Below are positions 2,506 to 15,003 of a stretch of 64,000 bases of DNA, piece after piece. This stretch comes from Oscillatoria sp. FACHB-1406 (GTDB lineage: Bacteria; Cyanobacteriota; Cyanobacteriia; Cyanobacteriales; Spirulinaceae), in the NCBI RefSeq assembly GCF_014698145.1, contig NZ_JACJSM010000002.1, positions 248,001-312,000 on the forward strand. The letters are read 5' to 3'. The translations under genes were made by a program, and so were the position numbers. Under the pieces are notes generated by a model. The model had not been told where the DNA came from. It made no database searches and saw only the letters and a program-made list of their open reading frames with translations. Within the stretch, counting starts at the first letter, position 1. Every line of letters begins with the position of its first letter.

Positions 2506-4332
2506 TTAAAATAACGGCTTGAGCCACTGAAATAAAACCCGCTCGACTAACCAAGGATAGCTGTTGTTACTGTCCGTACTCGCCAGTTCGCGATCCGCCA
2601 CGACAGAACCCGGAGAACTTCCCGGCTTCCCAAGCGCCTGTTCCCGCGAGCTATCGAGCAATTTTTGCCAAGCACTCACCACAGTACGCAACGAAGACGG
2701 CAATTTCTCCACATCGTAATCGGCATAGCGCGTCGTCCCTTGGCGCGCGCTTAACGTCACGCTAATAATATCTGCCGAACCGGACGGCGGCGGAAAAGCG
2801 AGTTTGTTGTACTGCCCGAAACGCTGCTGTTGGAGAATTTGCTCGAATTCGCGGACTTGTTGCGGCGACACCCGGCGGGTTTGAGTGGTTCCCCCGCGCG
2901 TCGATTGGCTTGTAATCTTGCCATCTTTCCACAAAATAACTTCCCGCACGTCTCCAGTAATTCCGCCCCCAGAAATCGCACGAAAAACAGCGTTAGCCGG
3001 TAAGGGCTGCGGTAATTCGTTTTCGGGAATGGGAACGGAATTAAGCGTGCTGCTGTTACTCGAAATTTGGCTAATAGTGGGATTGAGGCGCGTATCGGAA
3101 CCATTTTGGTTGGTATGGTAAACGAGGCGGTTATTGTTGCCTTCAACCGTCACTTGCCAGCCGGAAATGGCAATTTTCGTACAAACTTGGTTGGGTTCTG
3201 TGTAAATGCCGAAGCAGCCATCCCAAACGCGGGGAAAGGCGCTGGTGAGGCGCAGTTGGTTGCGCGGTAGCCCGGTTTGGCGGGCGGCAGCCGTTAATAC
3301 GGCATCGCGCACGGAGGCGGGCAAAACGCTAACCCCATTTTCTAAGTAAAGGGTTTCGCCGCTGCTGTCGGTGCGATAGATGAGTTGCTTCTCGCCCGCA
3401 CGGACGGTAACGCGCCAACCTTCAACCAGGGCTTCGGTACAACTGCGATCGGGAAAATTCAATCCCAAACAACCGTTAGGCCAAGTTTGCCGTTCGCTGC
3501 TGGTAATTTGAATCTTATCAACGGGAAGGTTAAGAAGTTGGGAAGCTTGCGATTTGACGGCATCGCTGATGGCTTGCGGCAAGTTTTCGGCAGGCTTACT
3601 ATCTTCAGCTTGAATGATATTGCCCCGAGTGTCGGTACGATACGTCAGTTTTTGGTTGCCCGCGCGCGCGGTAACGATCCAACCTTCAGTGATGACTTGG
3701 GCGCAAACGCGATCGGGTGTTTCGATTCCCATACAAGCGTTTGGCCAGGTGCGAAATTCCGCCGAAACGATTTGAATGCTAGCCGCCGGAAGTCCGGTAC
3801 GGCGCGCGGCATCCTGTTTAATCGTGTTGGCAACGTCAGGGGGCAGGCGGCGCGTTTGGGAGGGAGGATTTGTCGGAGGTGAGGTCGGTTTTTCGAGCAG
3901 TCCGAGGCGTTGGAGTTCGGTTTCGAGTTCGGCGTTCCAAGGGCGAGAGGAACCGAAAGCGCCATCATAAACGGCAGTCCAGTTATTTCTACCGTCGCGG
4001 TCGCCAAAAAAGAGGTAACGCCCGCCCGTTTCGGAGATAATATCTTGGCAAGAGGTTTGATTGAATCCGCTCAGCCGCACGGTTTGCGGCCCTTTACCTT
4101 TGAGGTAGCGGTTGACGCGAATGGTGAGGGTTTCACCGTCAACGCGAGCGATTGTGCCTTCAAAGACGTAAGGAGCGCTACTGATGCGCTGTTCGATCGC
4201 GGCAGGACGGCTGTCGGGAGCGGGCTTGCAAGCGCTGGCGGGGTTGGTAGTTGTGAGGCACAGGGCGATCGCGATCGGAAAACCCCAGAGCGGGAATTGC
4301 AGGGATTTGGGCTTGGAGGTGGAGTGAGTCAT
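2506..4332 (-). CDS. Secreted protein: TIMP/NTR-like domain, three Trp-Cys repeats, emfourin-like C-domain
   Basis: A 608-residue exported protein. The chosen ATG at 4332 gives a classical signal peptide (hydrophobic core around residues 15-30, cleavage near PASA-C). Residues about 35-130 resemble a TIMP/netrin-like fold: the mature N-terminus begins with Cys, followed by YVFEGTI, then a Cys and RYLFFGD. Three repeats of roughly 80 residues follow (about 166-243, 253-332, 337-417), each with TGLP/LNLP, a Trp, C-x-G, a second Cys, GW-x-VT and YRT/YHT. A C-terminal domain (about 460-575) has GGG-x-TG-x-VREV and ends with P-SSLR-VV-AW-KLL, resembling the protealysin inhibitor emfourin. The cysteine pairs suggest disulfides in the periplasm or outside the cell. 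A protease-inhibitor role is inference; the repeat unit has no name I know. Confidence 0.7.
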   Translation of the reverse strand: MTHSTSKPKSLQFPLWGFPIAIALCLTTTNPASACKPAPDSRPAAIEQRISSAPYVFEGTIARVDGETLTIRVNRYLKGKGPQTVRLSGFNQTSCQDIISETGGRYLFFGDRDGRNNWTAVYDGAFGSSRPWNAELETELQRLGLLEKPTSPPTNPPSQTRRLPPDVANTIKQDAARRTGLPAASIQIVSAEFRTWPNACMGIETPDRVCAQVITEGWIVTARAGNQKLTYRTDTRGNIIQAEDSKPAENLPQAISDAVKSQASQLLNLPVDKIQITSSERQTWPNGCLGLNFPDRSCTEALVEGWRVTVRAGEKQLIYRTDSSGETLYLENGVSVLPASVRDAVLTAAARQTGLPRNQLRLTSAFPRVWDGCFGIYTEPNQVCTKIAISGWQVTVEGNNNRLVYHTNQNGSDTRLNPTISQISSNSSTLNSVPIPENELPQPLPANAVFRAISGGGITGDVREVILWKDGKITSQSTRGGTTQTRRVSPQQVREFEQILQQQRFGQYNKLAFPPPSGSADIISVTLSARQGTTRYADYDVEKLPSSLRTVVSAWQKLLDSSREQALGKPGSSPGSVVADRELASTDSNNSYPWLVERVLFQWLKPLF

Positions 4333-11352: not shown

Positions 11353-14300
11353 ATGTTTGTTAACGCTTTCATTAAACGCCCGGTACTGACAAGCGTATGC
11401 TCTCTGATTATCGTTATTTTAGGCGCGATCGCGGGCTTGCAATTACCGATCGCGCGCCTGCCAGAAATTGCCCCCACCCAAGTCCAAGTAAGCGCCATTG
11501 CCATCGGTGCCGATGCGCAAACGGTAGAAAATACAGTAACAACGATTCTGGAGCGGGAAATTAACGGTGTGGAGGGGATGAAATATATCGAATCCAGCAG
11601 CAGCAACAACGGTTTTAGCCAAATTACCGTTACTTTCGATAGCAATGCCGATCCCGATCTCGCTCAAGTTAACGTTCAAAATCGCGTCGCGAGCGCCGAA
11701 TCACAATTACCCGAATCTGTCAAGCAAACGGGCATTGTCACCGAAAAAGCGTCTAGTAACCTCTTGATGGTTATTGGTTTTTACGCAAAGGATAAAGTTT
11801 ACGACGATATTTTTATCAGTAATTACGTCGATCTTTTCGTTCTCGACTCGCTGCGACGGGTGGAAGGAGTGGGGCGAGCCTTTATTTTCGGGGAGCGCAA
11901 ATATGCAATGCGGATATGGCTCGATCCCAATGCCCTCGCCAGTCGGGGTCTAACAGCGCTAGATGCGGCGAATGCGTTGCGGGAACAAAACGTACAAATT
12001 GGGGTCGGTGCGATCGCTCAACAACCCGCTCCGAGCGATGGCAAAATTCAACTGCCCCTGCGAGTAGAAGGACGGCTCAAAAGCGTCGAAGAATTCGAGA
12101 ATCTCGTCATTAAAACCAACAGTGACGGCTCTTTAGTGAAATTAAAAGATGTCGGACGGGCGGAATTAGGGGCGGAAACCTACGATAGTACGGTACAAAT
12201 TCGCAGCAATCCCGGAGTGGGGATCGGAATTTATCAACTTCCAGGCAGCAATGCCCTAGAAGTAGCCCGCAACGTCCAAAATGCGATCGCAGAACTCAAA
12301 CAAGACTTCCCGCCGGGACTCGAGGAAGTTATTGCCTTTGATACAACGGAGTTTGTAAAAACCTCCCTCGAAGAAGTATTGATTACGCTGATAATTGCGA
12401 TCGCGCTGGTAATCCTGATTATCTTCATTTTCCTACAAGATTGGCGCACTACCGTCATCCCTGCCGTCGCCATTCCTGTTTCGTTAGTTGGTACTCTCGC
12501 TTTCCTGAAAATCTTTGGCTTCGAGATTAACTCCCTTACCCTTTTCGGACTCGTACTCGCCACCGGATTAGTCGTTGATGATGCGATCGTCGTCGTCGAA
12601 GCGATCGCGACTAAAATACAACAGGGCAAAAAACCGCGTCAAGCCGCCATCGAAGCCATGCAAGAACTCACAGGGGCAGTCATTGCCACCTCTATCGTTC
12701 TCATGGCGGTTTTCATACCCGTCGCCTTCTTCCCGGGCAGCACCGGCAAAATTTATCAACAATTCGCCCTCACCATTGCCTTTTCCATCCTCCTCTCTAC
12801 CTTCAACGCCCTCACCTTTTCCCCCAGTATGTCGGCGTTGCTATTGCGTCCCCTAGGAGATAGACGCGGCCCCCTAGCTGGGTTTTTCCGGCGTTTTAAT
12901 GCCATTTTCGCCTGGATTATCCGCCGCTATCGGGCTGGGGTAGAATTCCTAGTTCGGCTGCGCTATATCGTCCTCGCTTGCTTTATTTCGGCGCTCGCCT
13001 TCACCTTCTGGATGTATGAAATCGTTCCCGGCGCTTTTATTCCCGAAGAAGATCAAGGCTATTTTTTGGGCATTGTGCAAACGCCTGAAGGAGTTTCCCT
13101 GAACTACACTCAGGGAATCATGGAAAAAGTCGATAAAGCAATGCAAAGCCTTCCTGAAGTCAAAAGTACCTTCGTCATTACAGGTTTTAGCTTCGGGGGT
13201 AGCGCTCCCAACCAAGGCATCTTTTTTGGAACCCTTAAGCCTTGGGAAGAACGGCGATCGCAGGAACAGTCAGTTTACGGCATTTTAGGACGCTTGAACG
13301 CCGAACTGCAAAAAATTCCTGAAGCGCTGATCTTCGCCCTTAATGCGCCTCCCGTGCAAGGCTTGAGCAACTTTGGGGGCTTTGAGTTTCAACTGCAAGA
13401 TCGCAGCGGCGGACGATTTAGTATCAACGACTTAGTACAGTCTGCCTACGCTTTGATGGAAAACGCGAACAAGAAAAGCGGGATCGCGCAAGCCTTCACC
13501 CAATTTACTGCCAATACTCCCCAACTCCAACTCGAAATCGATCGCGACAGAGCCAAATCGCTCAACATCAACATTAACGAAGCCCTCACCACTCTCGGCG
13601 CGTACATCGGTTCCCAATACGTCAACGACTTTACTTATGGTTCTCGCAGCTATCGCGTCTATATCCAAGCCGAACCTAAATTTCGAGCCACTCCCGAGGC
13701 GATAAACCAAATCTACGTTCGCTCGCAAGATAATCGCCTCATTCCCCTCAGTAATATCATTAAAACAACCCCCGTCACCAGCGCGCCGACAATTACCCAC
13801 TTCAACCTGTTTCGCGCCATCAAACTCCAAGGTCAAACCGCCCCCGGTGCAAGTTCCAGCGACGCGATCGCATCAATGGAACAAGCTTACCAAGAAATTG
13901 CCGCTCCCGGTTTCGGCTACGAATGGATGGGAACCGCTCTCGAGGAACGTTCCTCCGGCAACCAAGCCCCCATTATCTTTGGTTTAGGACTCGTTATGGT
14001 GTTCCTCGTCCTTGCCGCCCAGTACGAAAGCTACATCGATCCGGTCATTATCCTCCTCTCCGTCCCCCTCGCCCTCCTCGGCGCGCTTTCTTTCCTCTAC
14101 CTACGCGGCTTAAACCTCGATGTCTATGGACAAGTCGGTTTAGTCATGCTTATCGGTTTAGCCAGTAAAAACGCTATCCTCATCGTTGAATTTGCCAACC
14201 AACGTCTCGAAGAAGGGTCAACCGTCATTGATGCTGCCCTAGAAGCCGGAGAACAGCGTTTCCGACCGATTTTAATGACTGCTATTTCCAGCTTAGTCGG

Positions 14301-15003
14301 CTTCTTTCCTTTGGTCATTGCGACGGGTGCGGGTTCCGCCAGCCGTTGGTCGTTAGGAAGCGTTGTTTTTGGCGGTCTTCTCGTCGCTACCTTCCTCAGC
14401 TTTTTCCTGGTTCCCATTCTTTATATCATCATTAAAAGCCTGGAATTGCGCTACTTCCCCGCTCATGAACATCATGAATCTAATGAATCTGAACTGTTAG
14501 TTCCTATTCCGGTTACGCCTAGCAGCCCCACTCTTACTACACCTTCTGTCCCCAAACAGCAGCGTCCTTCGACTCACATCAATCTTAATACAACAGTATT
14601 GAGCGAAGAAGAAGAACAGAAGCCCAAACCTTCGCAGCGTCCTTCGACTCAAATTAATGATGATGCAACGGGTTTAAATGAAGAGGAACAGTACCCTAAA
14701 ACCCCGAAACGTCCTTCGACTCAAATTAACGATGATGCAACGGGTTTAAATGAAGAAGAACAGCACCCCAAACCTTCGCAGCGTCCTTCGACTCAAATTA
14801 ATTATGATGCAACGGGTTTAAATGAAGAAGAACAGCACCCCAAACCTTCGCAGCGTCCTTCGACTCAAATTAATTATGATGCAACGGGATTGAGTGAAGA
14901 AGAACAGCACCCTAAAACTCCGCAGCGTCCTTCGACTCAAATTAATTATGATGCAACCGGATTGAGTGAAGAGGAAAGCAATAACAGTAATCCAAATTCT
15001 TGA
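11353..15003 (+). CDS. RND (HAE1-type) efflux pump inner-membrane subunit with repetitive tail
   Basis: A 1216-residue AcrB-like proton-driven exporter. It starts FVNAFIKRPVLTSVC, with the first membrane helix. The two halves each carry a helix bundle; TM4 of the first half contains GLVLATGLVVDDAIVVVEA with the conserved acidic pair, and the second half has GLVMLIGLASKNAILIVEFA. It would work with a periplasmic adaptor and an outer-membrane channel, but neither is encoded next to it. The normal family ends near residue 1040. Here a cytoplasmic tail of six near-identical 24-residue units (RPSTQIN..ATGL.EEEQ) follows. The upstream gap is made of short tandem repeats and shows no clear ribosome-binding site. 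Confidence 0.93.
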   Translation: MFVNAFIKRPVLTSVCSLIIVILGAIAGLQLPIARLPEIAPTQVQVSAIAIGADAQTVENTVTTILEREINGVEGMKYIESSSSNNGFSQITVTFDSNADPDLAQVNVQNRVASAESQLPESVKQTGIVTEKASSNLLMVIGFYAKDKVYDDIFISNYVDLFVLDSLRRVEGVGRAFIFGERKYAMRIWLDPNALASRGLTALDAANALREQNVQIGVGAIAQQPAPSDGKIQLPLRVEGRLKSVEEFENLVIKTNSDGSLVKLKDVGRAELGAETYDSTVQIRSNPGVGIGIYQLPGSNALEVARNVQNAIAELKQDFPPGLEEVIAFDTTEFVKTSLEEVLITLIIAIALVILIIFIFLQDWRTTVIPAVAIPVSLVGTLAFLKIFGFEINSLTLFGLVLATGLVVDDAIVVVEAIATKIQQGKKPRQAAIEAMQELTGAVIATSIVLMAVFIPVAFFPGSTGKIYQQFALTIAFSILLSTFNALTFSPSMSALLLRPLGDRRGPLAGFFRRFNAIFAWIIRRYRAGVEFLVRLRYIVLACFISALAFTFWMYEIVPGAFIPEEDQGYFLGIVQTPEGVSLNYTQGIMEKVDKAMQSLPEVKSTFVITGFSFGGSAPNQGIFFGTLKPWEERRSQEQSVYGILGRLNAELQKIPEALIFALNAPPVQGLSNFGGFEFQLQDRSGGRFSINDLVQSAYALMENANKKSGIAQAFTQFTANTPQLQLEIDRDRAKSLNININEALTTLGAYIGSQYVNDFTYGSRSYRVYIQAEPKFRATPEAINQIYVRSQDNRLIPLSNIIKTTPVTSAPTITHFNLFRAIKLQGQTAPGASSSDAIASMEQAYQEIAAPGFGYEWMGTALEERSSGNQAPIIFGLGLVMVFLVLAAQYESYIDPVIILLSVPLALLGALSFLYLRGLNLDVYGQVGLVMLIGLASKNAILIVEFANQRLEEGSTVIDAALEAGEQRFRPILMTAISSLVGFFPLVIATGAGSASRWSLGSVVFGGLLVATFLSFFLVPILYIIIKSLELRYFPAHEHHESNESELLVPIPVTPSSPTLTTPSVPKQQRPSTHINLNTTVLSEEEEQKPKPSQRPSTQINDDATGLNEEEQYPKTPKRPSTQINDDATGLNEEEQHPKPSQRPSTQINYDATGLNEEEQHPKPSQRPSTQINYDATGLSEEEQHPKTPQRPSTQINYDATGLSEEESNNSNPNS
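14563..14997 (+). repeat. Six tandem coding repeats (72-75 bp) in the RND pump tail
   Basis: Units start with CGTCCTTCGACTCA at 14563, 14638, 14710, 14782, 14854 and 14926: the first spacing is 75 bases and the other four are 72. Each encodes about 24 residues: RPSTQIN, a DATGL-like block, an EEEQ acidic block and a PK-rich linker. The middle units are almost identical in DNA, which suggests recent expansion by slippage or unequal exchange, always in multiples of three. Confidence 0.9.

Follow-up and report, generated by a model that had tools for sequence, protein, structure and literature searches.

The gene in the first kilobases of the window (the whole stretch of 64,000 nucleotides of Oscillatoria sp. 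FACHB-1406 DNA that was analysed) encodes a protein in which an N-terminal domain (N), three repeats (R1 to R3, collectively R) and a C-terminal domain (C) follow one another, and its product is most probably secreted, with multivalent binding of other proteins as its likely role and inhibition as a possible one. The order of domains is the one proposed in an initial annotation of this DNA, and is borne out both by sequence and by models (Table 1). The mode of action tentatively put forward here, with somewhat less than even confidence, is that of an exported, disulfide-stabilised, multi-headed binder that captures and blocks extracytoplasmic hydrolases. Export followed by cleavage before Cys35 would release an NTR head whose N-terminal cysteine is free; a Cys35–Cys95 disulfide would tether this head, which could then enter a cleft in the manner of TIMPs. 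The three repeats, predicted to be of cystatin/PepSY/BLIP type and each with one conserved, putatively disulfide-closed loop, would confer multivalent binding, and the emfourin-type C domain would represent a third kind of head; metallopeptidases are the leading candidates for the target of the N head. Peptidase inhibition by such a protein is plausible, and the initially suggested action against grazers or competitors is conjectural.

Table 1. Features of the gene and its product (window coordinates; residues numbered from the start codon)
Feature	Coordinates	Strand	Basis
Whole gene P0001, 608 aa + stop	2506..4332	-	Open reading frame
Signal-peptide-like segment, residues 1-34, ASA end before Cys35	4231..4332	-	By eye
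N domain, NTR/TIMP/NtA-type fold, residues 35-146	3895..4230	-	Predicted model and profile matches
Repeat R1, residues 163-242	3607..3846	-	Repeat alignment and shuffles
Repeat R2, residues 251-330	3343..3582	-	Alignment and shuffles; modelled alone, pLDDT 94
Repeat R3, residues 337-416	3085..3324	-	Repeat alignment and shuffles
C domain, emfourin/DUF6438 superfamily, predicted Mago-nashi-like fold, residues 436-558	2659..3027	-	Profiles and model
C-terminal tail without assignment, residues 559-608 (50 residues)	2509..2658	-	Sequence

The ATG at 4332 was taken as the start because a signal-peptide-like stretch, recognised by eye, follows it directly (the frame itself stays open upstream as far as 4572). 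The protein, described earlier as secreted, is apparently exported. The mature chain would contain eight cysteines, two each in N, R1, R2 and R3. At full length the protein reached no Pfam or NCBIfam family (the best being DUF6438, E 0.093), and a sequence search of the PDB with the whole protein found no relative.

For the N-terminal end a TIMP/NTR fold had been proposed, and the predicted structure upholds it. The model comes from the full-length run, in which the window sequence alone covers this domain (block pLDDT 38–77); despite the low pLDDT its structure matches are coherent and support an NTR/TIMP-type fold, with complement C345C (6s0b; Z 9.2, rmsd 3.9, 112 aligned), hookworm AceES-2 (3nsw; Z 8.9, rmsd 2.5, 94 aligned), meteorin NTR (Z 7.6), TIMP-1 (3ma2; Z 7.4, rmsd 3.3, 98 aligned) and agrin NtA (Z 5.8) among them. 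When a profile of four N sequences was compared with the PDB, four agrin NtA chains ranked first at a weak E of 0.03, the alignment covering the stretch RYLKG...V..GF......G....FF, and the next match was a molybdenum-binding protein (E 0.08). In Pfam searches with the same four members NtA (E 0.12), AceES-2 (E 0.16) and NTR (E 0.21) were each matched by one member below the cut-off, TIMP was matched by none of the four, and the unrelated-looking NRG2_N outscored the NTR families (two of four, best E 0.0031).

In TIMPs the N-terminal cysteine reaches the catalytic zinc of the target, and the N domain begins C-x-C and holds six cysteines in three disulfides. The N domain shares with the TIMP/NTR group (TIMP-1, AceES-2, C345C, agrin NtA) the predicted fold and a Cys1-x-Pro3 start with a second cysteine at 61, the residues Cys1, Pro3 and Cys61 being invariant in all four N-domain proteins; an A/V-x-A junction lies directly before the first cysteine in each of the four, and the mature chain would, judging from these sequences, start with Cys in every case, as in TIMPs. 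However, the start is C-K-P, lacking a cysteine at position 3, and the N domain has two cysteines where TIMP has six (Cys35 and Cys95 are the sole ones in the window protein); unlike the known TIMP/NTR families, it also falls below the Pfam cut-offs and is joined to R repeats. Export as a lipoprotein was considered and set aside: under the lipobox rule the residues at position -2 before the cysteine (S, F, S and Q in the four proteins) fit poorly. Agrin NtA, the closest NTR domain by sequence, is a laminin-binding domain, which counts against an inhibitor. Two large frames in the genome to which the window belongs (L173 and L174, of 2249 and 1632 residues) carry the metzincin motif HExxHxxGxxH; metzincins are the class that TIMPs inhibit, and these possible targets of a TIMP-like head count in favour of the inhibitor reading. 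Of 292 genomes in the phylum 2 were found to have the N domain, and of the 13 in the family to which the window's genome belongs 4 were (the window's genome, G116, G296 and G298), the latter being a count in which the loci with no N-region match were read in part; one further locus (L178) retains just the beginning of the domain. What the protein offers here is a bacterial NTR domain with a predicted N-terminal geometry of TIMP type, open to direct test.

The three units of about 80 residues between the two ends had been described as repeats, and are real ones: aligned pairwise they score 205, 142 and 141 (z = 24.1, 15.8 and 16.5), and the highest scores among 1000 shuffles for each pair were 24.5, 34.0 and 37.5. 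R2 and R3 are 42% and 35% identical to R1, and 19 columns are invariant across the three. The pattern W...C-x-G...C...GW-x-VT...YRT, said to be fixed, is found in all three repeats except at its end, where repeat 3 carries YHT instead of YRT; W36, C40, C50, G57 and W58 of the repeat are nearly invariant. Searches of Pfam and NCBIfam with 32 diverse repeats gave no consistent match, each family being matched by a single member (stray matches at E <= 10 involved 18 Pfam families, best E 0.024, and 3 NCBIfam families, best E 0.0071), and a sequence comparison of R with the PDB gave one chance-level match. A relation between R and the C domain was also considered, and was rejected because profile comparison gave none. 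In one relative (L004) repeats three and four are neighbouring and identical, which points to a recent duplication event.

R2 was modelled with AlphaFold2 from the 81-row alignment at a mean pLDDT of 94, as a helix (5-19) and four strands (27-36, 55-64, 67-74 and 80-82). The model supports a cystatin/PepSY/BLIP-type arrangement, meaning a type of fold and not a family: R shares with these proteins the one helix and four strands, and occurs in tandem copies as in BLIP-like proteins, but it has no sequence match to them, and all its structure matches lie below Z 8, with unrelated folds among them and none that stands out. In order of Z the matches comprise a de novo design (6.8), amine oxidase domains, YpeB (5boi, which we take to be a PepSY protein; Z 5.4, rmsd 4.0, 64 aligned), DsbC, stefin B (4n6v; Z 4.8, rmsd 3.0, 68 aligned), cystatin A2, monellin and an Aspergillus metalloproteinase chain (4k90_B, presumably a prodomain; Z 4.5, rmsd 3.3, 73 aligned); Foldseek with the R model returned nothing at E <= 0.001. 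The R1-R2 tandem was matched with BLIP-like 4fr9 (Z 6.5, rmsd 7.2, 123 aligned) and with 3u1w (Z 6.5, rmsd 6.4, 120 aligned). A feature that sets R apart from the PepSY/cystatin/BLIP-type proteins is a predicted disulfide loop of ~18 residues between its first two strands, framed by the near-invariant Trp, Cys and Gly residues; by the order of elements, this loop would correspond in position to the first binding loop of cystatins.

R was found with a profile of the 81 repeats in 78 of 292 cyanobacterial genomes, and the whole window protein used as query gave 79 of 292. A collection covering 84,980 species yielded 326 stretches that fit the search patterns, of which 287 encode a relative; the best 80 of the 287 are all titled as cyanobacteria. 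R, C or N is present in 113 frames across 112 loci, with one to seven copies of R per protein and layouts that include a single R without C (29 frames, two of which, L036 and L044, are PhoD proteins), R-R-C (24), R-R-R-R-C (11), R-R-R-C (9) and R-R (9). Some duplication remains in these counts: L002 and L003 represent a single gene, L103 spans two frames, and the contigs of L007 and L077, like those of L009 and L102, are equal in length and seem to be present in both sources. R is thus common in cyanobacteria yet unnamed and without a consistent Pfam or NCBIfam match, and it now has a predicted fold of high confidence and a list of partners. The window's genome holds a second R frame (G000:C14:95775-96812, listed as L002, L003 and L122), of 403 residues with four more divergent repeats, in which neither the C nor the N domain was found.

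The partners of R, read by eye, include SLH repeats in 7 of 10 stretches fetched (L114-L118, L120 and L121; Pfam SLH matched L115, the one tested, at E 5.1e-28), a PhoD phosphatase to which R is C-terminal in three proteins (L036, L044 and L113; Pfam PhoD matched L044, the one tested, at E 3.8e-45) and a PEP-CTERM-like tail that R precedes in L188. On their N-terminal side the three PhoD-type phosphatases show repeats with the pattern FYL..NPDVAAAV...HF..FG..E.R.PS; at the C end each has one R. So R is a module that can be reused in different proteins, which seem to be exported, and, being present also on SLH proteins and a phosphatase, it is not a dedicated inhibitor part. Proteins with SLH, PhoD and PEP-CTERM-like parts are hard to read as inhibitors; their repeats count against inhibition, and those on SLH and PhoD proteins are the chief reason to consider a wider role in binding or anchoring. 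In such a role R would be a general extracytoplasmic module for attachment or ligand binding (to cell wall, exopolysaccharide or surface protein), and the window protein a scaffold of envelope or matrix in which R gives avidity while the two ends, NTR and emfourin-like, retain further proteins of the surface, with no inhibition taking place. This alternative is a serious one, to which we would nevertheless not commit ourselves: it accounts for the company that R keeps and for the laminin-binding domain at the head of the N profile matches, but it leaves aside the combination, in the window protein, of three distinct folds of which two are known from inhibitors, and neither R nor the whole protein matched a sugar- or wall-binding Pfam family.

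It is a good deal less probable, and indeed quite unlikely, that R acts as a PepSY-type intramolecular chaperone or pro-domain that holds an enzyme partner in a folded or inactive state while it is exported. The helix-plus-four-strand model with its YpeB match, and the enzyme fusions of R seen with PhoD, speak for such a domain. However, nearly all of the 113 frames show no enzyme domain in the searches made, which covered R, C and N in every frame, R stands at the C end of the PhoD proteins, and Pfam PepSY (PF03413) was matched by 0 of the 32 repeats; a search for the PepSY family gave no match in the window's genome and one in 2 of the 14 genomes searched.

The multi-headed binder is further characterised by its C domain, for which the proposed likeness to emfourin holds at the level of a superfamily. 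Among 17 C-domain members, DUF6438 (PF20033) was matched by 14 (best E 1.3e-4) and Emfourin (PF20242) by 11 (best E 2.7e-5), and profile comparison of the C domain with true cyanobacterial emfourins gave a probability of 87.9% (P 3.2e-6, 83 columns). The window's own copy matches DUF6438 alone (E 0.0086, 16.8 bits vs a cut-off of 30), and Emfourin at its curated cut-off had 0 matches in the window's genome. The C domain has in common with both families a GG-x-x-G region and an [AS]D position, but differs from them in that the window copy lies below both cut-offs, in a signal-peptide-like start, in the lack of an adjacent M4 gene, and in a model of 126 positions vs 91. Sequence comparison with the PDB gave chance-level matches for the C domain and none for the cyanobacterial emfourins.

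An unexpected hint came from the predicted structure of this domain, which resembles Mago nashi. The eight top entries were all Mago (Z 10.4-10.9, rmsd 3.3-4.0, 113-121 aligned), led by 2hyi_A (Z 10.9, rmsd 3.6, 121 aligned), and Foldseek matched the C model to 1hl6_D and 1hl6_B with probability 1.00 at E 0.008 and 0.018, nothing being found at E <= 0.001 for the model that contains the C domain. Emfourin is absent from the structure matches listed for the C model, an absence that carries no weight. The likeness to Mago, a component of the exon junction complex, lies in the predicted fold, whereas Mago is a eukaryotic nuclear protein and the C domain is bacterial, apparently exported and without significant profile similarity to it (0.3% for the C domain and 0.9% for emfourin, on the basis of just two near-identical Mago sequences). 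That emfourin/DUF6438-type C domains owe a Mago nashi fold to common descent is improbable; if true, Mago, at the core of the exon junction complex, would have relatives in bacteria, among inhibitor-type domains that capture proteins, the window protein would exemplify a Mago-related family serving as one of several binding heads, and the shared fold could bear on the origin of the exon-junction-complex protein. Folds at both ends unrelated to those initially proposed, which would have counted against the proposal, were not seen in the predicted structures.

Published work on emfourin (PMC9505478) describes it as an inhibitor of protealysin and thermolysin, and as sharing an operon with protealysin in Serratia. 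Because emfourin is thus a characterised inhibitor, the relation of the C domain to it counts for the binder or inhibitor reading. The suggestion that the target might be the cell's own thermolysin-like protease is not supported: Peptidase_M4_C had no match in the window's genome, which is 99.93% complete (the search was positive in the controls, Bacillus subtilis and Methanosarcina), and of the 36 genomes among 292 that have the C domain 12 are with M4 and 24 without. True emfourins behave differently, occurring in 13 of the 292 genomes, all within the 16 that have M4_C, and in 11 of the 13 (L123-L133) the emfourin gene is adjacent to the M4 gene, whereas where a C domain and M4 occur together (12 genomes) the two are apart by listed coordinates; this contrast counts against the inhibitor reading. 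Over the 292 genomes C domain and M4 are nonetheless associated (both 12, C only 24, M4 only 4, neither 252; Fisher p 2.6e-9), as are R and M4 (15, 63, 1 and 213; p 1.1e-8), and in the listed genomes of family f6 the co-occurrence of C domain and M4 stands at 9 of 19 vs 0 of 12 (p 0.005). These associations count in favour of some link and are confounded by clade and genome size. That the C domain is an ordinary emfourin restraining a same-cell M4 protease of thermolysin/protealysin type, as its sequence relation and this co-occurrence would allow, is very improbable and for the window's genome largely excluded, given the M4-less genomes, the signal-peptide-like starts that C domains follow and cyanobacterial M4 proteins do not show (by eye), and the presence of M4 in all 13 of the genomes that have a true emfourin.

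A phage origin of the gene was rejected, there being no phage match and no relative among 18 viral-contig candidates, as was a plasmid origin, the 2 plasmid records found both being cyanobacterial. The genes flanking it look, by eye, like unrelated housekeeping genes, and in the neighbourhoods of 80 named loci no protease was recognised by eye among the 14 largest clusters listed. The literature matches listed included no work recognisably on this protein family or on a bacterial relative of Mago, and a search on DUF6438 found no paper. Just downstream of the gene lies a perfect 36-base inverted repeat (2420-2455), whose 28-base core is found a single time in the window, while its 12-base arm has two exact copies (both there) and two copies with one mismatch, against 0.16 expected. 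Elsewhere in the window, 5.2 tandem copies of a 72-base unit (14608-14980) lie at the end of a frame that looks, by eye, like an RND permease (11353-15003), where they encode its repeated RPSTQIN..ATGLNEEEQ tail.
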